A stretch of DNA of 64,000 bases from Streptomyces sp. NBC_00341 (GTDB lineage: Bacteria; Actinomycetota; Actinomycetes; Streptomycetales; Streptomycetaceae): NCBI RefSeq assembly GCF_041435055.1, contig NZ_CP108002.1, positions 7,874,001 through 7,938,000 on the forward strand. Direction: 5' to 3'. The notes beneath the pieces were generated by a model. The model did no database searches, had not been told where the DNA came from, and was given only the letters and a program-made list of their open reading frames with translations. The translations under genes were made by a program, and so were the position numbers. Shown here piece after piece: positions 632 through 58,290 of this stretch. How positions within the stretch are numbered: position 1 is the stretch's first letter; each line of letters begins with the position of its first letter.

Positions 632-1585
632 ATGCCCATCCCGGGTAAGCACCGCCGTCCCAAGTCCAGCACCATCGCCCGCGGCGTCGTCGTCGCGAGC
701 GCCGGCGGAGCCGTCATCGCGCTTCCGCTGCTCGGCGCCACCGGTGCCAACGCCGCGGAGCAGGCCGCTCCCGCCACCGCGAAGTCGGCCGCCGCCACGC
801 ACTCCACCCCGGCCAAGCCGGTCGCGGACAAGCAGTCCGGCACCACGACGTACTCCGTGGTCTCCGGCGACTACCTGTCGAAGATCGCCGCCCAGCACAA
901 GGTCAAGGGCGGCTGGGAGAAGCTGTACCAGGACAACCGCAAGGTCGTCGGTGACGACCCGAGCCTGATCTTCCCGGGTATGAAGCTGACCCTCGGCGGC
1001 AAGGCCTGGGGCCACGCCCCGGCCACCGGCTCGCACACCGCCACGGGTGACACCACCCCGTCGAAGGCCCCCTCGAAGGCTCCGGCCAAGACCGAGTCGA
1101 AGGCGCCCGCGGCCTCCAACACCGCGTCCTCCTCCGACACCCAGGCGTCCGACACCGCTCCGGCCGAGCAGGGCACCGCCTCCGGCTACGTCCACCCGGT
1201 CCCCGGCAACCACACCACCGCCTACCGCGCCTCCGGCGCCAGCTGGTCCAGCGGCAGCCACACCGGCATCGACTTCCCCGTCTCCACCGGCACCAGCGTG
1301 AAGGCGATCACCTCCGGCACCGTCGTCACCGCGGGCTGGGGCGGCGCGTACGGCAACGAGGTCGTCATCAAGCACGCCGACGGCCACTACTCGCAGTACG
1401 GCCACATGTCCTCGCTCTCCGTCTCGGCGGGCCAGACCGTGACCGCGGGCCAGCAGGTCGGCCTCTCCGGCGCCACCGGCAACGCCACCGGCCCGCACCT
1501 CCACTTCGAGATCCGCACCGGCCCGGCGTACGGCTCGGACATCGACCCGATTGCCTACCTGGCGTCGCACGGGATCAACGTCTGA
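632..1585 (+). CDS. Secreted LysM-M23 family metallopeptidase
   Basis: A 317-residue secreted peptidoglycan hydrolase. Residues 1-41 form a signal peptide (basic start, hydrophobic core, cleavage near GANA-AEQ). A LysM wall-binding module covers about 72-121. An Ala/Ser/Thr/Pro-rich linker (about 128-182) leads to a C-terminal M23 (lysostaphin-like) domain. His210 and Asp214 (HxxxD) and His289/His291 (HLH) are the expected zinc and catalytic residues, with His258 also conserved. It should cut cross-bridge or stem peptides during growth, germination or division. The start follows GGAGAGG, 10 bases after the c-di-AMP leader, so expression is probably tied to c-di-AMP. A strong hairpin lies behind it. 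Confidence 0.93.
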   Translation: MPIPGKHRRPKSSTIARGVVVASAGGAVIALPLLGATGANAAEQAAPATAKSAAATHSTPAKPVADKQSGTTTYSVVSGDYLSKIAAQHKVKGGWEKLYQDNRKVVGDDPSLIFPGMKLTLGGKAWGHAPATGSHTATGDTTPSKAPSKAPAKTESKAPAASNTASSSDTQASDTAPAEQGTASGYVHPVPGNHTTAYRASGASWSSGSHTGIDFPVSTGTSVKAITSGTVVTAGWGGAYGNEVVIKHADGHYSQYGHMSSLSVSAGQTVTAGQQVGLSGATGNATGPHLHFEIRTGPAYGSDIDPIAYLASHGINV

Positions 1586-2642: not shown

Positions 2643-3581
2643 TCAGAGTTCGCCGAACGGGCGCCGCTCGGCGAACTCCGGCGAGGGCATCCCCAGCAGC
2701 TGGGGGCCCGCCCGCCCGACGGAACGCGGCGGCCGGGCCGGTACGCGCTCCAGCACGCCGCCCGCGAACACGTCGTACAGCGGCAGCGTCTCCAGATGGA
2801 CGTAGCCGATATGGCAGTCGCACACCGCCAGCGGGCACGCCCGGGGGCCCAGCGCCCCGCGGTAGCTGCCGTCGTAGAGGTTGCCGAGTTCGGCCCGGAC
2901 GAAGTGGCAGCGGCGCACCGTGCCCTCCCCGTCCACCGAGATGACCGACTCACCGGTCCGGCACGGCAGCCCGGCCGAGCGGTGCGGATGGCGGCTGTAC
3001 GGGAACAGCGGGTCGATCTCCGTCCACCGGCCGGCCTCCGCGTCCGTGTAGGTGTGCCCCTCCGCGGCGTTGACCCAGAGGTACACCTCCTCCGGGAGCG
3101 CCGCCCGCAGCCGCCGGGCCTCGTCGAGGTGATCGTCCAGACCCACCACCCCGACGCTGTGCCGGATCCCCAGGGACGCCAGCTCCCCGCACCGGTCCAG
3201 GAAGCGCTCGTACGGCGTCTGGCCCGGGTGGTACGTGCACCAGAGCGCGATCTTGTCCCGCCCGGCCGCGCCCGCCTCGGCCAGCCACCGCGTACGTCCG
3301 CTCAGGTTCGTCTGGATCGCCACCCGGCGGATGTGCGGCAGCCCGGCCAGCTCGACCATCGCCCGCCGGTACCAGGAGCGGACCAGCCCCTCGCCCCACG
3401 GGGTGAACAGCACCGAGATCCGGTCGTCCCGCTGCGCCGCGGCCCACGCCGTGAACCGCTCCAGCGCGGCCCGGTCGGCCCGCAGCTGTTCCCCGCTGTC
3501 GCGCCGCTTGGCGAACGGGCAGTACGGGCAGTCGTAATCGCACGACGCGAGCGGGCCCCGGTAGAGAATCGTCAGGTCCAT
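2643..3581 (-). CDS. STM4011-family radical SAM protein
   Basis: A 312-residue radical SAM enzyme. The 4Fe-4S motif CX3CX2C is near the start (Cys14, Cys18, Cys21; CDYDCPYC). Further Cys-rich segments near the C-terminus (CRTGE, RRCHF, ACPLAVCDCHIG) suggest a second metal cluster, as in SPASM-like proteins. It matches the family named after Salmonella STM4011, whose reaction is unknown. It is the last gene of a six-gene minus-strand operon and starts 7 bases after the STM4012 stop. Two radical SAM proteins with an ATP-grasp-like protein suggest peptide or protein modification, which is inference. Confidence 0.85.
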   Translation of the reverse strand: MDLTILYRGPLASCDYDCPYCPFAKRRDSGEQLRADRAALERFTAWAAAQRDDRISVLFTPWGEGLVRSWYRRAMVELAGLPHIRRVAIQTNLSGRTRWLAEAGAAGRDKIALWCTYHPGQTPYERFLDRCGELASLGIRHSVGVVGLDDHLDEARRLRAALPEEVYLWVNAAEGHTYTDAEAGRWTEIDPLFPYSRHPHRSAGLPCRTGESVISVDGEGTVRRCHFVRAELGNLYDGSYRGALGPRACPLAVCDCHIGYVHLETLPLYDVFAGGVLERVPARPPRSVGRAGPQLLGMPSPEFAERRPFGEL

Positions 3582-3588
3582 GCGGGGC

Positions 3589-4950
3589 TCACTTCAGCTC
3601 GTACGAGGCCATCGCGGCCCGCACCGCGGGGGAGAAGAGCTCGGGTCCCAGCGCGTCGGAGTGCGCGAGCCCCTCGGGCGACAGACGCAGCAGCCCGGCG
3701 GCCGACGCGTCCGGATCGAGCCAGCCCCGCTCCTCGAACAGGGCCAGCTCCGCACCGAAGTCCTCCTCGGGCCGGCTGCCGAACCGCTCGCGGTACTCCG
3801 ACAGCCGCATGCCCCCGGCCTGGAGGACCGACTGCAGGAGATGGCGGCGGCGCGCCTCGTCGCCGTCGGTGTACCGGCCCACCTCGGCGTGCGAGAAGTC
3901 CTCGGTCTCCGTGTAGCCGTCGATGATCGTCCGCACCTGTCGCATCTCCACGGCGTAGTCGAACGAGTAGTGCAGCCGGGAGGTGTACGAGCGGGCGCCG
4001 CAGCCGAGGCCGACCATGCCGTCGGTCTGGCACGCGTAGTCGTCGGGGCCCTCGGCGGGCGGGGCGCCGGCGCGCCGGAACATCCGCATCGACACCTGCT
4101 CGTAGCCGTGCCCCAGGAGGTGATCGCGGCCCGCGCGGTAGAGCCGCAGCCGCTGCTCGTCCCAGGCCGGCTCCGCGTCCGCCGCGGCGGCGCCGGTCCG
4201 GCCGAGGCCGGTCAGCGGACGGACGTACAGCGGGTAGAGGTACAGCTCCTCCGGCCGCCACTGGAGCGCCGCGTCCAGTGAGGTGCGCCAGCTCGACTCG
4301 TCCTGCCCGTCGATGCCGTAGATCAGGTCGATGTTGAGGACCGGGATGCGGGCGTCCCTGATCAGCCCCAGGGCGGCCTCCACATCCGCCCGGCGCTGCG
4401 GACGGACCGCCGCCCGTGCCTCGGCCTCGACGAAGCTCTGCACACCGATGCTGATCCTGGTCGCCCCCCGCTCCGCCAGGACGGCCAGCCGGTCGGCGGT
4501 GGCGGTCGACGGTGACGTCTCGACCGACAGGGGCACCGAGCGGAGATCGGCGCCCATGCGCTTCTCCGCTATGTCGCACAGGCGCTCCAGCTCGCCCGCC
4601 GTCAGGAAGGTCGGGGTCCCGCCGCCGAAGGCCGCCGAGGCGAAACGCACCGGCTCCGTGTCGCCCAGGGCCTCCCGTACGGCTGTCGCCTGCCGGTCCA
4701 GCGCGTCGAGGTAGCGGCCGGTCAGCTCGTCGGGGGCGCCGACCCGGGTGAAGAGGTTGCAGAAGCCGCAGCGGACCTCGCAGAACGGTATGTGGAGATA
4801 GAGCGAGAGCGCGTCCTTGCCTTCCCCGGCCCACAGATCCCTCAGGGCCGGACGCCCGCCGGGCAGCCGGCCGAGCGGCTCGTACGCGGTCTTGTGCGGA
4901 TAGGCGTACACATAGCTCTGGTACGGGCGGACGGTGTGCGGACTGGTCAT
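3589..4950 (-). CDS. STM4012-family radical SAM protein (HemN-like)
   Basis: A 453-residue radical SAM protein of HemN/HemW-like architecture. The cluster motif is CEVRCGFC (Cys57, Cys61, Cys64) within LYLHIPFC, followed by a HemN-like stretch FGGGTPTFL and IGVQSF. The C-terminal half resembles the HemN C-terminal domain. The HemN resemblance does not imply haem synthesis: the family is defined by its neighbours STM4011 and STM4013-4015. The start ATG overlaps the STM4013 stop by four bases (ATGA), which points to translational coupling. Substrate unknown. Confidence 0.86.
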   Translation of the reverse strand: MTSPHTVRPYQSYVYAYPHKTAYEPLGRLPGGRPALRDLWAGEGKDALSLYLHIPFCEVRCGFCNLFTRVGAPDELTGRYLDALDRQATAVREALGDTEPVRFASAAFGGGTPTFLTAGELERLCDIAEKRMGADLRSVPLSVETSPSTATADRLAVLAERGATRISIGVQSFVEAEARAAVRPQRRADVEAALGLIRDARIPVLNIDLIYGIDGQDESSWRTSLDAALQWRPEELYLYPLYVRPLTGLGRTGAAAADAEPAWDEQRLRLYRAGRDHLLGHGYEQVSMRMFRRAGAPPAEGPDDYACQTDGMVGLGCGARSYTSRLHYSFDYAVEMRQVRTIIDGYTETEDFSHAEVGRYTDGDEARRRHLLQSVLQAGGMRLSEYRERFGSRPEEDFGAELALFEERGWLDPDASAAGLLRLSPEGLAHSDALGPELFSPAVRAAMASYELK

Positions 4951-5840
4951 CGTGCGGTCCCCGGTTCCAGGAAGAAGTGGGCGTACGGAACGGTCCAGAC
5001 GGACTCGTGCCCGAGCCGGTGGCCGGTGTAGCCGTCGTCGCCGTACGCCGTGCCGTGGTCGGAGCAGACGATGGCGAAGGCGCGGCGGCGGCTGCTCATG
5101 GCGGCGAAGAGCCGGCCGATATGGGCGTCGACGTACTCCAGCGCGGCGGCGTGCGTCGCGCGGCTGTCACCCGCGTCCCGGGTCGCGCCGGGCCGGTGGA
5201 ACCAGTTCGGCTGGTGCAGCGCGGAGACGTTGACGAAGAGGAACAGCCGCTGTCCGTGCGGCAGCCCGGCTACGACCTGCTCGGCACGGGCCACCTGCGC
5301 CTCGAACGAGGTGGGTGAGGCGACGCCGAACCCGGGTTCCCAGTGCGCCTCCTGGAACATGCCGGGAAGCACCGAGCCGAGCGGTGCCCGCTGGTTGAAG
5401 AACCCCACCCCGCCGATGCACACCGTGCGGTAGCCGGCCGCGGCCAGTCCCGAGACCAGGTCGGGGGTGTCGAAGACGAAGGTGCGCTCCTCGGTCGTCT
5501 CGCTGCCGGCGAACCGGGCGGCGAACAGCCGGGGATGCGGGCCGGGCGCGGCCGGCGTGGGCAGGAACCCCGCGAAGATGGCCTGGTGCGACGCGTAGGT
5601 GAAACTCCCCGGAGCGTGCCGCCGCTCCCAGCCCCCGGCCGGCAGATGCCGGGCCAGGTTCGGGATCCGGCCGGCGGCGGCCAGCTCCGCCGCGACGTCG
5701 TACCGCAGGGTGTCCAGGGTGACGAGCAGCAGATCGTCGTGGCCGACGACCTCGCTCATGTCCGGGTTCGGGGCGCCTATGACGCCGGAGGGAGGCCCGT
5801 CCATGGCGCCGGACGGGGGTTCAGGATGCTGCGTCGACAC
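4947..5840 (-). CDS. STM4013/SEN3800-family hydrolase (alkaline phosphatase/sulfatase fold)
   Basis: A 297-residue protein of the alkaline phosphatase/sulfatase superfamily. The N-terminal metal-binding segment is VTLDTLRYD (Asp43, Thr44). The C-terminal metal segment is SDHGTAYG (Asp261, His262), followed by GYTGH. This keeps the metal site but has no clear sulfatase formylglycine motif, so a phosphodiesterase or phosphatase role is as likely as sulfatase. The GTG start at 5840 has GGGA upstream and overlaps the STM4014 end by 20 bases; an internal ATG at 5759 (MSEVVGHDD) is an alternative. Fourth gene of the STM4011-4015 operon. Confidence 0.84.
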   Translation of the reverse strand: MSTQHPEPPSGAMDGPPSGVIGAPNPDMSEVVGHDDLLLVTLDTLRYDVAAELAAAGRIPNLARHLPAGGWERRHAPGSFTYASHQAIFAGFLPTPAAPGPHPRLFAARFAGSETTEERTFVFDTPDLVSGLAAAGYRTVCIGGVGFFNQRAPLGSVLPGMFQEAHWEPGFGVASPTSFEAQVARAEQVVAGLPHGQRLFLFVNVSALHQPNWFHRPGATRDAGDSRATHAAALEYVDAHIGRLFAAMSSRRRAFAIVCSDHGTAYGDDGYTGHRLGHESVWTVPYAHFFLEPGTAR

Positions 5841-6966
5841 GGTGGTTCCCTGCTCTGTTCAGTACGGCGGCGACCTGCGCCGCATAGGTGTCCAGTCCCT
5901 CGGCGCCGCTGCCGGGCAGACCGGTCAGGCGCGGCAGCAGATCGCCGAAGGCGTTGACCTCACCGACGGCGAACCGCCGCCAGCCGGTCGAGGGCAGCAG
6001 GTCGACGCCCACGCACAGCGTGTCCGGGAAGGCGTCGCCCGCCCGCTCGCACACCGACATGGCCGCCTGCCAGCTGCCGCCCGCCGCCGCGACGGCGGCC
6101 CGCGCCTCGTCCAGATCGCCGCGAGCCCCGCCGAGGTGCAGATTGGTCATGGGGGAGCGGCTGGTGCGCACGACGGCGTGGGTGGCGCGGCCGTCCACCA
6201 CCACGACCCGCAGATCCGCGGCCCGGCCGCGCTGGGAGGCCTTCGGCAGCCAGCGTTCGACGTGCAGACCGTCCGGTGCGAGCGCGTCGACGATCGTCGC
6301 GACCTCGCTCTCCGTCGTGAGCCGCCGTACCCGGAGCGAGTTGTGCAGCCGGCCGGCTCCGTCCCGCTCGACCGAGGTGGTCGCCCTCACCCGGCCCGGT
6401 CCGGCCGTCTCCACGGCCAGCACCCCGGAGGCCGAGGACCCGTGCGCGGGCTTCACGAACACCCTCGGCATCCCGCGCTCCGCCATCAGCCCGCGCACAT
6501 CCGCCCAGCCACGCACGGGCGGTGCGCCGGGGCCAGAGGTGGGTGAGGCGGGCACGGGCACGCCCGCAGCGGCCAGCACGCCGTGACACAGGCGCTTGTC
6601 GAACAGCACCGCGATGTCGTCGGGGTCGTCCAGCAGCACCGCACCCGCCCCGGCCACCGCCCGCGCCACCTCCCGTACGGCGGAGGTGAATTGCGCATAC
6701 CAGCGGGACGAACCCTCCACCCTGGTCGGATCCTCGACGCCCCGCAGCAGCCGCTCGACCTCGGCGTCCTCACCGGGGGAGTCGATGCGCACGGTCTCCC
6801 CGGGCAGGAAGACCGCGGCCCCGTTCAGTACGTCGAGCCAGGACACGACGCGGGCCGGGGACAGCCCGGCGGCACGCACGGCCTCCTGGAAGAGGCCGAC
6901 GCGGCGGTTGCCCGGATTGCCCACGACCGCGAAACGGGGCGGCGCGCTATTCACTGACCGCGACAT
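5821..6966 (-). CDS. STM4014-family protein, ATP-grasp-like
   Basis: About 381 residues. The N-terminus has a Rossmann-like segment (FAVVGNPGNRRVGLFQEA). A central region (LFDKRLCHGVLAAAGVPVP, then VFVKPAHGSSASGV) looks like the ATP-binding part of an ATP-grasp ligase such as RimK. Late segments ADLRVVVVDG and GVDLLP...VGEVNAFGD match the metal-binding end of that fold. ATP-grasp enzymes usually form amide bonds, so this is a candidate ligase of the operon. Start choice: ATG at 6966 overlaps the upstream STM4015 gene by 20 bases; GTG at 6954 is possible. Upstream in-frame codons to 7356 encode implausible Ser/Arg-rich sequence. Confidence 0.82.
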   Translation of the reverse strand: MSRSVNSAPPRFAVVGNPGNRRVGLFQEAVRAAGLSPARVVSWLDVLNGAAVFLPGETVRIDSPGEDAEVERLLRGVEDPTRVEGSSRWYAQFTSAVREVARAVAGAGAVLLDDPDDIAVLFDKRLCHGVLAAAGVPVPASPTSGPGAPPVRGWADVRGLMAERGMPRVFVKPAHGSSASGVLAVETAGPGRVRATTSVERDGAGRLHNSLRVRRLTTESEVATIVDALAPDGLHVERWLPKASQRGRAADLRVVVVDGRATHAVVRTSRSPMTNLHLGGARGDLDEARAAVAAAGGSWQAAMSVCERAGDAFPDTLCVGVDLLPSTGWRRFAVGEVNAFGDLLPRLTGLPGSGAEGLDTYAAQVAAVLNRAGNHRVDAAS

Positions 6967-7915
6967 AGCGGGGCTCTTCGCCCTCGGGGTCCCAGTAGTC
7001 CGCCTCGTCGAGATCGAGCCGGGTGCCCGCCCCGGCGCACAGCTCCCGGAAGCGGTCCATGAGCGGATCGCTGAGGTAGTGGTGACGCAGGTCGAGCGAG
7101 GTGAGGTGGGTGAGCGGCTGACCGTTGAGCAGGGCCGAGGCTCCCTCATCGGTGAGCGTTCCCATGGAGAGGGCGAGCGACTCCAGCCGGGCGACGACCG
7201 GGGCGTGCGAGACGGCCGCGGCGATCTCGTCCTGGATCTCACTGTTCTGCAGGCCGAGATGGCGAAGCCGGGGAAGGCCGGTACCCGCGAGGACCGGGCG
7301 CAGATCCTCCACCGTGGCGTCACCGCCGTACCAGCCGACGCCGAACCAGAGCTCAAGCCTTTCGAGCGCGGGCAGTTCGCAGGCCCCGACCGCTCGTACG
7401 ACGTGGCCGGGCAGGCCGCCGGACTCGAACCGCAGCGATTTCAGCGCCCCGTGCCGCACCGGACGCAGCTCCAGCGTCGCCTCCTCGGGGACGCTGTCCC
7501 CACCGCCGCGCACGGTCAGCTCCTCCAGGAGCGGGAACGCTTCGAGGACCGGTGTGATGTCGCACATCGCGAGCCACGACACCTCGCACTCCTCACCGAC
7601 CACATCGGCGAGGAACAGCGCGCGCAGATCCGTGAACCGGCCCGCCGCGGAGACGAGCAGCTCGACGACGGGGGCGAGAGCGGAGTAGTCGTCCTCCCAC
7701 CAGGGCCCGATCAGCAGGGCCCGGACCCCTGCCGGGTCGACCGTGTCGAGGAAGTGCTGCCAGAGCTCGGGGAACGGTACCTCCTCCTGCCTGCAGTCCA
7801 GCCGCCAGGCCACCGACTCCGCCGGAGGCAGCGCCGGCCCGCCGACATCGTCCGCGCACGGCAGCGTCAGCACGGGAAGACCGTGGAACATCTCGGGGTG
7901 TTCGATGCTGTTCAA
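6947..7915 (-). CDS. STM4015-family leucine-rich repeat protein, copy A
   Basis: 322 residues. The middle and C-terminal half hold ribonuclease-inhibitor-like leucine-rich repeats (LRHLGLQNSEI, LESLALSMGTLTDEG, LTSLDLRHHYLS). A TTG start at 7915 is chosen because the protein then aligns from its first residues with the neighbouring paralogue (NSIEHPEMFHGLPV against SDVDHLHELLGLPA) and GGAG lies ten bases upstream. The stop of the paralogue is seven bases away. The last residues RYVAVSE match the paralogue's RYTTVSE. Function unknown; possibly a protein partner or the substrate of the operon's enzymes. Confidence 0.85.
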   Translation of the reverse strand: MNSIEHPEMFHGLPVLTLPCADDVGGPALPPAESVAWRLDCRQEEVPFPELWQHFLDTVDPAGVRALLIGPWWEDDYSALAPVVELLVSAAGRFTDLRALFLADVVGEECEVSWLAMCDITPVLEAFPLLEELTVRGGGDSVPEEATLELRPVRHGALKSLRFESGGLPGHVVRAVGACELPALERLELWFGVGWYGGDATVEDLRPVLAGTGLPRLRHLGLQNSEIQDEIAAAVSHAPVVARLESLALSMGTLTDEGASALLNGQPLTHLTSLDLRHHYLSDPLMDRFRELCAGAGTRLDLDEADYWDPEGEEPRYVAVSE

Positions 7916-7922
7916 GGCCGTA

Positions 7923-8873
7923 TCACTCCGACACCGTGGTGTAGCGCCCTTCGGGCCCGCCGTCGTCCCACGGCTCGCAGCGGTCCGACAGATCGACCCG
8001 CACCCCGTGCGGTACCAGGGCGTCGGAGATCCTGCCCTCCATCCGCTCACTGAGGAAGTGGTGGTGCAGATCCAGCACATCGAGGTGGGTCAGCGGCTGG
8101 CCCTCCAGCAGCGCGGCCGCGCCCTCGTCCCCGAGGGTGCCGCACGACAGGTCGAGCGTGCGCAGCCGGGCCACCAGCGGGGCCGAGGCGACGGCCGCCG
8201 CGATCTCGTTCTCCACCTCGCTGTTGCGCAGACCGAGATGGTGCAGGGCCGGAAACCGGGTGCCGGACAGCAGCGGCGCCAGATCCGCCACATCCGCGTC
8301 GCCGCCGTAGGCGGACACACCCAGCCAGAGATCGAGCCGCTCCAGCGCGGGCAACTCGCTGTCCAGCACCCCGCGGACCACCTCGACCGGCAGCCCGCCC
8401 GTCTCGATGGTGAGCGAACGAAGGCGCTCGTGCCGGGTGGGCGGGAAGACGAGATCGGTTCCGCCGCGCACCCCGAACTCCACCAGCGCCGGATAGGCGG
8501 CGAGCAGGGCGGTCACATCGCTCTGCTGGATCCAGGAGATCTCCGACTCCTCCATCGTCAGATCCCCGACGAACACCGCCTCCAGCGACGTCAGCCGGTC
8601 GGCGGCGGCCGTCACCAGACCGATCGGATAGGACGAGTCCTCCTCGTACGACTCGCCCCACTGACCGATGATCAGCGCCCGCACCCCGGCCGGGTCGACG
8701 GCTGCCAGGAACGAGGCGAACTCCTGCTCCCAGGTGCGGTCGTCCTCGTACGGCTCGACGAAGACGCGCCAGGCCGCCGCACCCGCGGCCGGCCGGCTCC
8801 CGTCGCTCGCGTCGTGCTGGAAGTCGACGGCCGGAAGGCCGAGCAGCTCGTGCAGGTGGTCCACATCGGACAT
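7923..8873 (-). CDS. STM4015-family leucine-rich repeat protein, copy B
   Basis: 316 residues, first gene of the operon. It is a paralogue of the next gene: same N-terminal half with conserved DPAGVRALIIG, then leucine-rich repeats (LHHLGLRNSEVENEI, LRTLDLSCGTLGDEG, LDVLDLHHHFLSE) and the same C-terminal tail. AGGAG precedes the ATG with nine bases between. The tandem copies probably arose by duplication, since other clusters of this type are known with a single STM4015 gene. A DNA-damage-type promoter motif lies 43 bases upstream of the start. No signal peptide or membrane segment, so cytoplasmic. Confidence 0.85.
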   Translation of the reverse strand: MSDVDHLHELLGLPAVDFQHDASDGSRPAAGAAAWRVFVEPYEDDRTWEQEFASFLAAVDPAGVRALIIGQWGESYEEDSSYPIGLVTAAADRLTSLEAVFVGDLTMEESEISWIQQSDVTALLAAYPALVEFGVRGGTDLVFPPTRHERLRSLTIETGGLPVEVVRGVLDSELPALERLDLWLGVSAYGGDADVADLAPLLSGTRFPALHHLGLRNSEVENEIAAAVASAPLVARLRTLDLSCGTLGDEGAAALLEGQPLTHLDVLDLHHHFLSERMEGRISDALVPHGVRVDLSDRCEPWDDGGPEGRYTTVSE

Positions 8874-8915
8874 GGCCCTGGGCTCCTGGTGACGGTGACG
8901 GATTGATGTCCGCAA

Positions 8916-8938
8916 GGTCTATCAACAGCCACTGACAA
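8916..8938 (-). promoter_or_regulatory. PafBC/RecA_NDp-like promoter of the STM4015-4011 operon
   Basis: Read on the minus strand: TTGTCAGTG (8938-8930), eight bases, then TAGACC (8921-8916). This matches the LexA-independent DNA-damage promoter known from mycobacteria (tTGTCRGtg-N8-TAnnnT) except for the last -10 base. The predicted transcript start is about 35 bases before the ATG at 8873. Confidence 0.65.
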
Positions 8939-8977
8939 CGGGCGCACCGGCCCCGCCGCCCGGCCCTTCACCGTCGA

Positions 8978-9048: not shown

Positions 9049-9375
9049 GTGTACCGGCAGGGCGATGTGCTGATCATGGCGCTGGAGGAGTCCGAGGTAC
9101 CGCCGAACCTCCTGGACGCACCGGGCGAACTGCGTGACGGGCGGGGGCGGCTGGTGCTCGCGCTAGGTGAGGTCACCGGACACGCCCACGCGGTGCCGGG
9201 ACCCGGCCGGCTGATCCGGGAGGCCGGGGTGTTCGGCCCGATGCTGCTCCACCTGCCCGACGGGGGGCGGGTGGTGCACGAGGAGCACGCGGTGATCCCG
9301 CTGCCGAAGGGCTGGTTCCGCGTCGTGCGCCAGCGGGAGTACGCGCCGGGGTCGGTCCGCATCGTCGCGGACTGA
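9049..9375 (+). CDS. Small conserved protein with GEVTGHAH motif, function unknown
   Basis: 108 residues, starting at GTG with GGGGAG six bases upstream. The sequence opens with YRQGDVLIMAL and has a conserved-looking centre GEVTGHAHAV with two histidines two residues apart, then HEEHAVIPLP and a basic strand WFRVVRQREY. It looks like a small all-beta domain, and the His residues could bind metal; both are inference. I do not know a function. It is followed 114 bases later by a DUF6745-like gene, and the two probably form one transcript from the DNA-damage-like promoter at 8978-9000. Confidence 0.8.
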   Translation: MYRQGDVLIMALEESEVPPNLLDAPGELRDGRGRLVLALGEVTGHAHAVPGPGRLIREAGVFGPMLLHLPDGGRVVHEEHAVIPLPKGWFRVVRQREYAPGSVRIVAD

Positions 9376-9431
9376 GCCGCTCCACCGGCCGGGCCTGCGG
9401 GAGCCCGCGGTGAGGAGTGGCCGGAGAACGT

Positions 9432-9470
9432 CCGGAACAGGAAACCGGAACAGGAAACCGGAACAGGGAA
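9432..9470. repeat. Three 13-bp tandem repeats
   Basis: CCGGAACAGGAAA occurs at 9432-9444 and 9445-9457, and a one-base variant follows at 9458-9470. It lies in the gap between the 108-aa gene and the DUF6745-like gene. The copies are purine-rich and could vary by slippage. Confidence 0.85.
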
Positions 9471-9489
9471 GACAGGGGACGGGGAGAAC

Positions 9490-10491
9490 ATGCAGTACGT
9501 GGACTCATGGCGGGCCGTGGCGGCGGCGACGGGCGCGGCGGACCGGGCGGCGGCGGAGGACGGGGTGCGGCTCGCCTACCGCAGCGCGGGTCTCGCCGAG
9601 CCGGAGGAGTTCGTCTGGGCCGAATCGCCCAGGGAGGCCGTCGGGCTCGTGCGGAAGCTGGCCGACGCAGGCCGCTCGGTCCGCGAGGAGATAAGGACCC
9701 GGCCCTGGGCGGACGAACGACGCCGTTTGTACGACGAGTTGGGCCCGGCCGGCTGGTCCGCGCTCTGGTCCGCCACCGGCGCCCAGCTGTGGGAGACGAC
9801 GGCGGCGCTCGCCGACCGGATACGGGCCGCTGTCGTGTCCGAGGCGGCCGAGCGGCCGGAGGACGAGCCGGATGTGCGGCTGCTCCTCCTCGACGCGGTC
9901 CTGGGCCAGCACGACGCGGCCTGGCTCGCCGCGTTCGACGGCCGGGGCGACCGGCTCGACGGACTGGCGGCGGTGGCCAGGAACGCGGGCTGGTGGTGGC
10001 CCTACGAGCGCACGGTGGTGATCAGTGAGCGTCCCGAGGAGCTGTACCGCGACGAGGCGGGCAGGCTCGACCGCGGCGACGGCCCCGCGCTCTCCTACCG
10101 GGACGGCTTCGGGCTGTACGCCTGGCGCGGCATGCCGGTGCCCGCCGCCTTCCTGGCGGAGCTGACCGCGCTCACCCCCGAACGGATCCGGGCCGAGGAG
10201 AACGCGGAACTGCGGCGCGTGATGCTGGAGTTCTACGGATACGACCGCTACCTCACCGAATCGGGCGCCGAACCGCTCCACCGGGACGAGACGGGCATCC
10301 TCTGGCGGATCGCGCTGGACGGCGACGAGGACGTGGTCATGGTCGAGGTGGTCAACTCCACCCCGGAGCCGGACGGCACGCACCGCACCTACTGGCTGCG
10401 GGTGCCGCCCGCGGTCCGGACCGCGAAGGACGGCGTCGCCTGGACGTTCGGGCTGCCGGGCGAGTCCTACGCACCCGTGCGTCAGACGTGA
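9490..10491 (+). CDS. DUF6745-like protein, function unknown
   Basis: 333 residues with GGGGAG before the ATG. The N-terminal half is helical (EEFVWAESPREAVGLVRKL). The centre has an aromatic run NAGWWWPYERTVVISERP followed by ELYRDEAGRLDRGDGPALSYRDGFGLYAWRG split into a repeat-like fold; this block (D/NxDGPAxxYxDGxxxYxWxG) is what I recognise as DUF6745. The C-terminus has an LHRDETGILWRI strand repeat. No catalytic motif is evident. It is paired with the upstream 108-aa gene and divergent from the LRR/radical SAM operon, with both promoters of DNA-damage type. Confidence 0.75.
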   Translation: MQYVDSWRAVAAATGAADRAAAEDGVRLAYRSAGLAEPEEFVWAESPREAVGLVRKLADAGRSVREEIRTRPWADERRRLYDELGPAGWSALWSATGAQLWETTAALADRIRAAVVSEAAERPEDEPDVRLLLLDAVLGQHDAAWLAAFDGRGDRLDGLAAVARNAGWWWPYERTVVISERPEELYRDEAGRLDRGDGPALSYRDGFGLYAWRGMPVPAAFLAELTALTPERIRAEENAELRRVMLEFYGYDRYLTESGAEPLHRDETGILWRIALDGDEDVVMVEVVNSTPEPDGTHRTYWLRVPPAVRTAKDGVAWTFGLPGESYAPVRQT

Positions 10492-56202: not shown

Positions 56203-58290
56203 CTACCGGCCCGGCACCGTGCTCGGCGCCGGGGCGTAGCCCGTGGCCCGGGTGGTGAACGTCCCCCTGCCCTGGGTCCGGCTGCGCAACCGGGTCGCGT
56301 AGCCGAACAGTTCGGCCAGCGGCACGGTCGCCGTGACCACCGCCGTACCGGGCCGCGCGGTCGAGCCGGACACCTGGCCACGCCGCGCCGCGAGGTCGCC
56401 GAGCACCCCGCCGACGGCGTCGTCGGGCACGGTGACCGTCACCTCGGCCACCGGCTCCAGCAGCACCATCGCGCAGGCGCGCAGCGCCTCCCGGAGCGCG
56501 AACCGCCCGGCCGTGCGGAACGCCATCTCCGAGGAGTCCTTGGAATGCGTGGCGCCATCGGTCAGCGTCACCCGCAGCCCGGTCACCGGATGCCCGCCGA
56601 GCGGCCCCTCGGCCAGGGCGTCCCGGCAGCCGGCCGCCACCGCCCGGACGTACTCCTGCGGAACCCGGCCGCCGACGACGGACGAGTGGAACTCGAACTC
56701 CGCACCGCCCTCGCCGTCCTGGCCGTCGGCGCCCCCCAACGGTTCGACGGTGAGCACGACATGGGCGAACTGCCCGGCCCCGCCGTCCTGCTTGACGTGC
56801 CGGTACACCAGACCCGCCACCCCGCGCACGACCGTCTCCCGGAGGGCGACCTGCGGCCGGCCGACCCGGACCTCGAGGCCATGGGCCCGGCGGATCTTCT
56901 CGGCCGCCACCTCCAGATGGAGTTCGCCCATGCCCGAGAGCACCGTCTGACCCGTCTCCGGGTCCGTCCGCACCGCCAGTGAGGGGTCCTCCTCCGCCAG
57001 CCGCGCCAGCGCCGACATCAGCCGCTCCGTATCGGTGTTCCGGCCCGCCTCGACCGCCACCGAGACGACCGGATCGGCCACGGTGGGCGGTTCGAGGACC
57101 AGCGGGGCACCCGGCGCGCACAGGGTGGCACCGGCACGCGCGGCCTTGAGGCCGATCACCGCGACGATGTCCCCGGCCACCGCCTCGTCCACATCGACAT
57201 GGCGGTCCGCCTGCACCCGCAGGATCCGGCCGACCCGCTCGCTGCGCCGCGCACCCGCGTCCAGCACCGTGTCCCCCTTCCTGAGCGTGCCCGAGTACAG
57301 CCGCAGATACGTCAGCCGGCCCGTCGGGGTCGCGGTCACCTTGAACGCCAGCGCGGCGAGCGGAGCCGCCGGGTCCGCGGCCCGTTCCTCCACCTCGCCG
57401 CCGAGCGTGCCGCGCACGGGCGGCACGTCCAACGGAGAGGGCAGATAGGCCACGACGGCCTCCAGCAGCGGCTCGACACCTCGGTTGCGGTACGCCGAAC
57501 CGCACAGGACCACGACGCCCTCACCGGTACGGGTCAGATCGCGCAACGCCACGGCCAGTGTCTGTGCGGAGAGCGTGGACCGCGCGCAGAACTCCTCCAG
57601 CGCGACCGGGTGGAGCTCCGCCACCGCCTCCTCCAGCAGCCGCCGGCGCCGCGACGCTTCCTCCAGCAGCTCATCGGGCACCTCCCCCTCCTCGTACGTG
57701 TCGGAGCCGTCGGCCCAGACCAGTGCCCGCATGCGCAGCAGATCCACCACTCCGGTGAACCGCTCCTCGTCCCCGATCGGCAGCTGAACCACCAGGGGGA
57801 CCGTGTGCAGCCGCTCCCGGATCGACGCCACGGCGGAGTCGAGGCGGGCGCCGACCCGGTCGAGCTTGTTGACGAAGGCGATGCGCGGCACACCGTGCCG
57901 GTCGGCCTGCCGCCACACCGACTCGCTCTGCGGCTCCACACCCGCGACCGCGTCGAACACCGCGATCGCGCCGTCGAGCACCCGCAGCGAACGCTCGACC
58001 TCGTCGGCGAAGTCGACGTGCCCCGGGGTGTCGATCAGGTTGATCCGGTGGTCCGCCCACGTACAGCTCACCGCGGCGGCGAAGATGGTGATGCCGCGGT
58101 CGCGTTCCTGCGGGTCGAAGTCGGTGATGGTCGTGCCGTCATGGACCTCGCCGCGTTTGTGGGTGGTGCCGGTGGCGTAGAGGATCCGTTCGGTGACGGT
58201 GGTCTTGCCGGCATCGACGTGGGCGAGGATGCCCAGATTGCGAACGCCGTTGAGTGTGCTGGTGAGTCGGCGGTTCAGTTCGGTACGCAC
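56203..58290 (-). CDS. Elongation factor G paralogue
   Basis: 695 residues, all five EF-G domains. G1 AHVDAGKTT, G2 GTTITDFDPQERDRGITI (in parts), G3 DTPGHVDF, G4 NKLDR, G5 CGSAYRN. Domain IV has HSSVVGGRVPQEYVRAV. It differs from the main EF-G by short insertions and replaced residues, so it is a second translocase-like GTPase, as seen in streptomycetes that carry fusB besides fusA. A role in antibiotic tolerance or ribosome recycling is possible. ATG 58290 follows no strong ribosome binding site. Confidence 0.9.
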   Translation of the reverse strand: MRTELNRRLTSTLNGVRNLGILAHVDAGKTTVTERILYATGTTHKRGEVHDGTTITDFDPQERDRGITIFAAAVSCTWADHRINLIDTPGHVDFADEVERSLRVLDGAIAVFDAVAGVEPQSESVWRQADRHGVPRIAFVNKLDRVGARLDSAVASIRERLHTVPLVVQLPIGDEERFTGVVDLLRMRALVWADGSDTYEEGEVPDELLEEASRRRRLLEEAVAELHPVALEEFCARSTLSAQTLAVALRDLTRTGEGVVVLCGSAYRNRGVEPLLEAVVAYLPSPLDVPPVRGTLGGEVEERAADPAAPLAALAFKVTATPTGRLTYLRLYSGTLRKGDTVLDAGARRSERVGRILRVQADRHVDVDEAVAGDIVAVIGLKAARAGATLCAPGAPLVLEPPTVADPVVSVAVEAGRNTDTERLMSALARLAEEDPSLAVRTDPETGQTVLSGMGELHLEVAAEKIRRAHGLEVRVGRPQVALRETVVRGVAGLVYRHVKQDGGAGQFAHVVLTVEPLGGADGQDGEGGAEFEFHSSVVGGRVPQEYVRAVAAGCRDALAEGPLGGHPVTGLRVTLTDGATHSKDSSEMAFRTAGRFALREALRACAMVLLEPVAEVTVTVPDDAVGGVLGDLAARRGQVSGSTARPGTAVVTATVPLAELFGYATRLRSRTQGRGTFTTRATGYAPAPSTVPGR

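Follow-up and report, generated by a model that had tools for sequence, protein, structure and literature searches.

ATP-grasp ligases of several families (RimK, LysX, MptN and CofF) attach an amino acid to a glutamate-type carboxylate, and RimK does so at the C-terminal glutamate (Glu) of ribosomal protein S6. In the LysW/LysX and ArgW/ArgX systems a RimK/LysX-type ligase couples an amine to the conserved C-terminal Glu of a carrier protein; LysW ends in EDWGE and bears the amino acid on its last Glu, and the ArgW mutant E54A did not grow without arginine, as the excerpted text of the source describes (PMC10433800). The excerpted text of another source describes PEARL/pearlin pathways, in which a ribosomal carrier receives a unit at its C-terminus and this unit is then altered in place, one example involving a radical S-adenosylmethionine (SAM) enzyme (PMC9303977). 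In this article we analyze an STM4011–STM4015-type locus found on the minus strand at positions 2643–8873 of a 64,000-nucleotide stretch of DNA (hereafter the window) from Streptomyces sp. NBC_00341. The locus encodes two STM4015-type leucine-rich repeat (LRR) proteins, here called STM4015A and STM4015B, together with an ATP-grasp-like protein (STM4014), a hydrolase (STM4013) and two radical SAM proteins (STM4012 and STM4011). The new observation of this analysis is that STM4015 proteins end in Glu. Based on the sequence comparisons described below, we lean towards the view that the operon modifies its own LRR protein at this terminal Glu.

The last residue is Glu in 121 of 121 STM4015 proteins (the second copy of the window and 120 close relatives among those listed) and in 120 of 120 distant relatives among those listed, which share 32–99% identity with the Salmonella protein and include Salmonella, Escherichia coli, WGR-LRR and HEAT-LRR forms. 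The Glu end spans Salmonella, Bacteroides, Nostoc and Streptomyces. Among distinct sequences taken from loci, 159 of 163 have Glu as the last residue, the exceptions being three stand-alone copies and one frameshifted fragment. When only distinct copies adjoining STM4014 are counted, the number is 161 of 162, and the single remaining copy should be that frameshifted fragment. With these four non-Glu sequences set aside, 355 of 355 distinct tails have Glu at position −1; 352 of them have Ser, Ala, Gly or Thr at position −2, every one has Val, Leu, Phe, Ile, Ala or Tyr at position −3, and the end motif mostly reads [RM][YF]xx[VLIF][STAG]E. In alignment A8, Glu316 is invariant while columns 285–315 vary above average (entropy 2.20 vs 1.84) and the distance to the C-terminal end spans 39–54 residues. 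The body of the protein, which contains 14 further invariant columns in the same alignment, is matched by Pfam as LRR only and is LRR-like in the AlphaFold2 (AF2) model. In some Nostocales proteins STM4015-like LRR modules are joined to HEAT-like repeats and in other proteins to WGR domains, and all of these end in Glu (examples are P0148, P0240 and P0221 from Nostocales, and further P0131, P0169 and P0238).

The enzymes encoded next to STM4015 include a protein related to the ligases introduced above. Among 51 relatives of STM4014, 41 match the RimK family, 27 MptN, 16 LysX and 8 CofF, and STM4014 profiles weakly match the structures of biotin carboxylase, LysX, RimK, cyanophycin synthase and D-Ala ligase. 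Residue conservation was counted over distinct sequences scoring more than three quarters of the best score, without the frameshifted locus L083 and the window. By this count K120, K168, D318 and N334 are kept in 79 of 79 STM4014 sequences and E332 in 78 of 79; we take these residues to be the ATP-grasp lysines and the metal-binding Asp, Glu and Asn. The CX3CX2C motifs that a sequence-only reading of the window had pointed out in both radical SAM proteins are indeed present, and the motif is kept in 86 of 87 relatives of STM4011 and in 84 of 84 relatives of STM4012. Five further cysteines of STM4011 (C207, C225, C249, C254 and C256) are found in 87 of 87 sequences, and the C-terminal part of this protein matches the auxiliary-cluster region of SkfB (6efn) at 4.8e-4. 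The SPASM family of Pfam (PF13186, E-values up to 0.05) weakly matches 5 of 9 STM4011 relatives, with a best value of 0.0018, and has no match in the STM4011 protein of the window. STM4011 has C-terminal auxiliary-cluster-like cysteines in common with SkfB-type SPASM/twitch maturases but is only weakly similar to them, and it adjoins a folded LRR protein rather than a short precursor. STM4013 matches the Pfam Sulfatase family (5e-9), and its best matches in the PDB are nucleotide pyrophosphatase/phosphodiesterases followed by sulfatases. Thr81, presumably the candidate nucleophile position, and the candidate metal ligands are kept in 84 of 84 sequences.

The likeness to LysW/LysX and ArgW/ArgX consists of a conserved C-terminal Glu and a ligase related to RimK and LysX. 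The differences are considerable. LysW is a small zinc protein ending in EDWGE, whereas STM4015 is an LRR protein of about 300 residues with the tail RYTTVSE; the partners are lysine or arginine enzymes in those systems and radical SAM enzymes here; and STM4014 scores far under the LysX cut-off. Because the body, the size and the ligase scores all differ, the locus is not a member of the LysW/LysX group. The RimK/S6 pair differs in that it has no radical SAM partners and in that S6 is unrelated to STM4015. In PEARL pathways, as far as the excerpted text goes, loading is tRNA-dependent rather than catalyzed by an ATP-grasp enzyme, the carrier is a peptide and the product is released by proteolysis (PMC9303977). 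None of the six core proteins and two partner proteins of the locus matched the PEARL (LanB-type) family, although such an enzyme could be encoded elsewhere.

We infer the following scheme, which is conditional as to all its reactions, the identity of the amine, the sequence of steps and what the product is used for. STM4015 would serve as the acceptor, consisting of an LRR body, a variable region that is often acidic, and a short terminal motif with Glu as its final residue. STM4014 would activate a carboxylate of this last Glu and join to it an amine, which could be an amino acid or a small amine. STM4011 (SPASM/twitch-like) and STM4012 (HemN-like) would then use radical chemistry to alter either the attached unit or the tail, and STM4013 would remove a phosphate or phosphodiester during or after assembly. 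One set of enzymes would serve several LRR proteins, whether arranged in tandem or located elsewhere in the genome. The modified STM4015 may itself be the product, carrying a protein-borne group, because no peptidase or exporter was found within the conserved gene set (annotated plasmid loci and one E. coli locus; enzymes encoded elsewhere are possible). In Salmonella, E. coli and Paenibacillus, genes for major facilitator superfamily transporters lie upstream of the locus; the Bacteroides locus has a peptidase gene nearby.

Genomes that have STM4015 without the enzymes provide a further comparison. Among 246 same-genus genomes (taken as Streptomyces), G320, G361 and G385 contain STM4015 while none of STM4011, STM4012 and STM4014 exceeds its cut-off in them; their STM4015 tails end in ...SVGPLTY, ...RYVSIAV and ...ICVEGLP, respectively, without the Glu. 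G385 retains a short STM4011-like fragment containing a stop; two of the three genomes lack STM4013, and G361 has a lone copy of it elsewhere. By comparison, 14 of 15 stand-alone STM4015 copies in enzyme-bearing genomes keep the Glu (one each in G161, G419, G537, G621, L100, S. cadmiisoli and NBC_00896, two each in G397 and G612, and three in Embleya sp. NBC_00888), where stand-alone means that no STM4014 match occurs in the flanking DNA examined, often only ~1.5 kb per side. The copy in L100 lies a few kb from its own operon on the opposite strand. Fisher's test of Glu loss against enzyme absence yields p = 0.005, with relatedness ignored. This contrast excludes G589 (tail lost, genome-wide enzyme search not made), G602 (Glu kept, degraded STM4014 adjoining), the frameshifted second locus of G626 and L165 (which adjoins STM4011); nor does it draw on the weak STM4015 matches of G344, G427 and G524 or on the broken G360 locus.

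The sequence-only reading had suggested protein or peptide modification with the LRR proteins as substrate or scaffold. Our results partly support this suggestion: they favour the LRR protein as the target of modification and narrow the site to its C-terminal Glu, given the near-invariant last residue, the RimK/LysX-like STM4014, the SPASM-like end of STM4011 and the loss of Glu in G320, G361 and G385.

Several results weigh against modification at the terminal Glu. STM4014 of the window remains far under the cut-offs of the relevant ligase models, with 31.9 bits (8e-8) against rimK_fam (TIGR00768, cut-off 143.4) and 19.2 bits against LysX (TIGR02144, cut-off 275.6). Fixed ends also occur among the neighbours: STM4012 ends in Lys in 78 of 91 sequences and the products of two divergent partner genes, a 108-aa protein and a DUF6745 protein, end in Asp in 72 of 73 and in Thr in 69 of 74, mostly from Streptomyces loci. 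A fixed end by itself is consequently not peculiar to STM4015. The other neighbours were compared in 90 typed loci, comprising 9 plasmid loci, the best 80 of 534 genome-scan relatives (nearly all Streptomyces) and the window, with typing profiles built from the window and plasmid proteins. The commonest last residue there is Ala for STM4014 (27/89), Arg for STM4013 (42/89), and Arg or Pro for STM4011 (19/89 each). What is peculiar to STM4015 is a fixed Glu end that persists in different phyla and behind tails that vary. The Nostocales proteins keep the Glu as well, while the co-occurrence of the enzymes was surveyed outside cyanobacteria only. The third stand-alone copy of G612 is tail-less although the genome has the enzymes, which rules out the stricter proposition that tail loss tracks enzyme loss exactly and leaves the weaker contrast standing; G602 in turn keeps the Glu with only a degraded STM4014 within 19 kb. 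The tree requires only two losses, since four of the five tail-less copies (G385, G320, G612 and G589) form one clade and the second loss is that of G361, whose sister G397 retains the Glu. The contrast is for this reason suggestive rather than a proof.

The structure of the tail also belongs on this side. The tail of STM4015A has a predicted local distance difference test score (pLDDT) of 88–90 in the AF2 model (mean 95.3), contrary to the expectation of a disordered tail. Alignment to the crystal structure 2RA8 extends to model residue 316 and chain residue 357, and the tail seems to be ordered in the crystal too. Being ordered in the model and, it seems, in the crystal, the tail is no free swinging arm, at least when unmodified. 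2RA8 (Bacteroides fragilis Q64V53) is a solved structural-genomics entry to which no function is assigned; it is an STM4015-like LRR protein whose sequence matches to the terminal Glu, through ...MITE at position 354 of 362, and the residues past 354 are taken to be a tag. It differs from STM4015 in having an N-terminal WGR domain (end-to-end alignment with P0131).

The ordered tail in the model and the coverage of the tail by the 2RA8 alignment make a groove-bound structural or ligand role a serious rival. The tail would then be a built-in part of the LRR groove, the terminal Glu would fill or complete a binding site, and the enzymes would act on some other bound molecule; the 14 invariant columns in the body are also consistent with such a role. 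A structural role alone does not explain why the Glu stays at the very last position in tails of differing length, or why it is lost in the three genomes without STM4011, STM4012 and STM4014, and we regard this explanation as unlikely, though deserving attention. It is also conceivable that STM4014 attaches one or more glutamates to the tail of the LRR protein as a form of regulation, as RimK does with S6, while the radical SAM enzymes serve to produce an unrelated small molecule. The many matches of STM4014 relatives to rimK_fam and the acceptor ending in Glu agree with this. However, both STM4011 and STM4012 are matched in 89 of the 90 typed loci (one of the STM4012 matches being a 28-bit piece only), which goes beyond what pure glutamylation would need, and we consider glutamylation alone improbable. 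A role of the locus in tetrapyrrole metabolism, with the LRR protein as a mere scaffold, is suggested by the nearest solved chain of STM4012, which is HemN (1olt, 4.5e-52), and by its matches to the HutW, HemW and HemN models, all under their cut-offs. However, the methyltransferase NocN (3e-32) is also among the nearest solved relatives, and no other haem gene was seen to recur in the annotated neighbourhoods (a hemN gene lies ~7 kb from the E. coli locus), so that this role seems very improbable.

Returning to modification at the C-terminal Glu, the locus itself is real, widespread and uncharacterised. The proteins of the window were scored against curated NCBIfam cut-offs, and 6 of 6 core proteins passed those of the STM4011–STM4015 families (Table 1). 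The order of transcription is STM4015A, STM4015B, STM4014, STM4013, STM4012 and STM4011, with overlaps of 8, 20 and 4 bases and two gaps of 7 bases each. The six tightly packed genes described in the sequence-only reading were recovered in full, but that reading overlooked two divergent genes at 9049–10491 which belong to the locus, making it larger than six genes. STM4015 was found nowhere else in the 9.06-Mb source genome, and the nearest proteins are from Streptomyces.

Table 1. Genes of the STM4011–STM4015-type locus and its divergent partners (positions in the window).
Gene product	Position	Strand	Properties
STM4015A, LRR protein, 316 aa, ATG start, tail RYTTVSE	7923..8873	-	NF038076 385 bits (cut-off 275); proposed acceptor, Glu316
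STM4015B, second LRR protein, 322 aa, TTG start (ATG alternative 7891), tail RYVAVSE	6947..7915	-	NF038076 370 bits (cut-off 275)
STM4014, RimK/LysX-like ATP-grasp protein, 377 aa, GTG start	5821..6954	-	NF038074 467 bits (cut-off 175)
STM4013, alkaline-phosphatase/sulfatase-fold hydrolase, 297 aa, GTG start	4947..5840	-	NF038075 423 bits (cut-off 250)
STM4012, HemN-like radical SAM protein, 453 aa	3589..4950	-	NF006067 628 bits (cut-off 380)
STM4011, radical SAM protein with C-terminal auxiliary-cluster-like cysteines, 312 aa	2643..3581	-	NF038073 408 bits (cut-off 200)
108-aa protein, divergent partner gene, GHxH and HxEH motifs, C-terminal Asp	9049..9375	+	adjoins operon in most loci
DUF6745 protein, 333 aa, divergent partner gene	9490..10491	+	PF20530 3e-114

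A survey of genomes confirms that the families co-occur elsewhere, a check that the sequence-only reading had proposed. STM4015 is present in 6 of 296 genomes of a phylum-wide set and has a match in 115 of the 246 same-genus genomes (111 over cut-off); in a larger draw that overlaps the 246, the count is 173 of 353. STM4011 exceeds its cut-off in 111 and STM4014 in 108 of the 246. When the over-cut-off lists of STM4015 and STM4011 are compared by hand, 108 genomes have both, as opposed to three with only STM4015 (the enzyme-less genomes described above) and three with only STM4011 (G310, G391 and G531). One locus of the latter kind, L151 (G531) at 4438–8943, contains STM4011, STM4012, STM4013, DUF6745 and the small gene, and no STM4015 or STM4014 was seen in it. 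In E. coli, 154 of 5426 complete genomes match. The gene order STM4015-4014-4013-4012-4011 is found beyond Actinomycetes in Salmonella, Paenibacillus, Deinococcus, Methylobacterium and E. coli. A Bacteroides plasmid keeps STM4015, STM4014 and STM4011, with STM4013 and STM4012 matched by short pieces only. A haloacid dehalogenase (HAD) hydrolase gene is located 3' of STM4011 in the Salmonella and E. coli loci examined and is fused to STM4011 in Bacteroides.

The tandem arrangement of STM4015, which the sequence-only reading had called unusual, turned out to be common. At least two STM4015 matches occur in 53 of the 115 matching same-genus genomes (counted by hand, fragments included), and tandem pairs were also found in loci of the plasmid collection, two from Deinococcus and one each from Streptomyces and Nonomuraea. 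When the tree is computed with the tail removed, single STM4015 copies cluster with first copies and second copies mostly form two separate groups (39 of 42), while the Deinococcus copies are separate from those of Streptomyces and group with Methylobacterium (support 0.70). Because single copies join the first copies and most second copies stand apart, the pair is old rather than a recent duplication, and by this tree STM4015B is an old paralogue of STM4015A.

All seven families occur in 72 of the 90 typed loci, 37 of which have two STM4015 genes. DUF6745 is found in 67 of the 80 genome-scan loci; contig ends, as judged by inspection, truncate six of the other 13. The loci of Salmonella, Paenibacillus and Bacteroides lack it. 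The single copy of the 108-aa protein without a terminal Asp also seems to be cut by a contig end. The conserved GHxH and HxEH motifs of this protein are invariant across the 12 rows of alignment A9, and it is perhaps a metal-binding barrel. It has no Pfam, NCBIfam or PDB match and matches the phage family phrog_27831, which has no assigned function (1e-10); beyond PF20530 and PHROGs of unassigned function, neither partner protein matched an annotated family. Genes for a 108-aa-like protein and a DUF6745 protein lie side by side in Microcystis phage Ma-LMM01 (gp175-gp174, L131 5021–6552) and in another phage record (L132, near 6001–7040), with no STM4011–STM4015 among the neighbours shown. Because phages carry the pair without STM4011–STM4015, we treat it as an independent, accessory module. 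In Deinococcus and Methylobacterium, the DUF6745 proteins (L045 12869–13870 and L046 5746–6768) have LRR-like repeats ahead of the domain, and those of L045 weakly match LRR models. The pair in Microcystis phages and the other phage record, along with the patchy distribution, could indicate a phage-defence or conflict system with the LRR proteins as sensors and the DUF6745 pair as a mobile partner, but among the eight proteins PADLOC matches only STM4012, weakly and to a candidate system (PDC-M51A, 1.6e-5), and no effector-like gene was recognised in the core, which makes this the least probable of the explanations considered.

Literature searches, which left subscription journals mostly uncovered, found no functional study of the STM4011–STM4015 or DUF6745 locus; in the excerpted texts STM4013 and STM4015 figure as mere table rows. 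A Clostridium locus that pairs an LRR protein with a radical SAM gene in the excerpted text of PMC2879425 was dropped, since its membership in the STM4015 family is not demonstrated there. An amino-group carrier protein is mentioned in connection with natural-product biosynthesis in the excerpted text of PMC9570651 and is not used as support. Elsewhere in the window, a c-di-AMP riboswitch (RF00379, 60 bits, gathering threshold 38) is located at 468–628 on the plus strand, directly upstream of a gene at 632–1585 (+) whose product looks by eye like a LysM/M23-like cell-wall protein. An elongation-factor-G-like GTPase of 695 aa, judged from its N-terminus and possibly a second copy, is encoded at 56203–58290 on the minus strand.

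STM4011–STM4015 are five named families without function, present in Salmonella, in E. coli and in about half of the Streptomyces genomes sampled. More tentatively than modification at the C-terminal Glu as such, we propose that a folded LRR protein, in place of a small carrier domain or a peptide, may act as the carrier, through its C-terminal Glu, for a new protein-borne group or metabolite assembled by a RimK-like ligase together with two radical SAM enzymes. The pathway would be conserved in organisms as diverse as Salmonella, E. coli, Bacteroides, Deinococcus and Streptomyces. A load on the terminal Glu, if one is found, would represent either a new type of biosynthesis on a protein tether or a new group derived from a protein, and two radical SAM reactions would await discovery.

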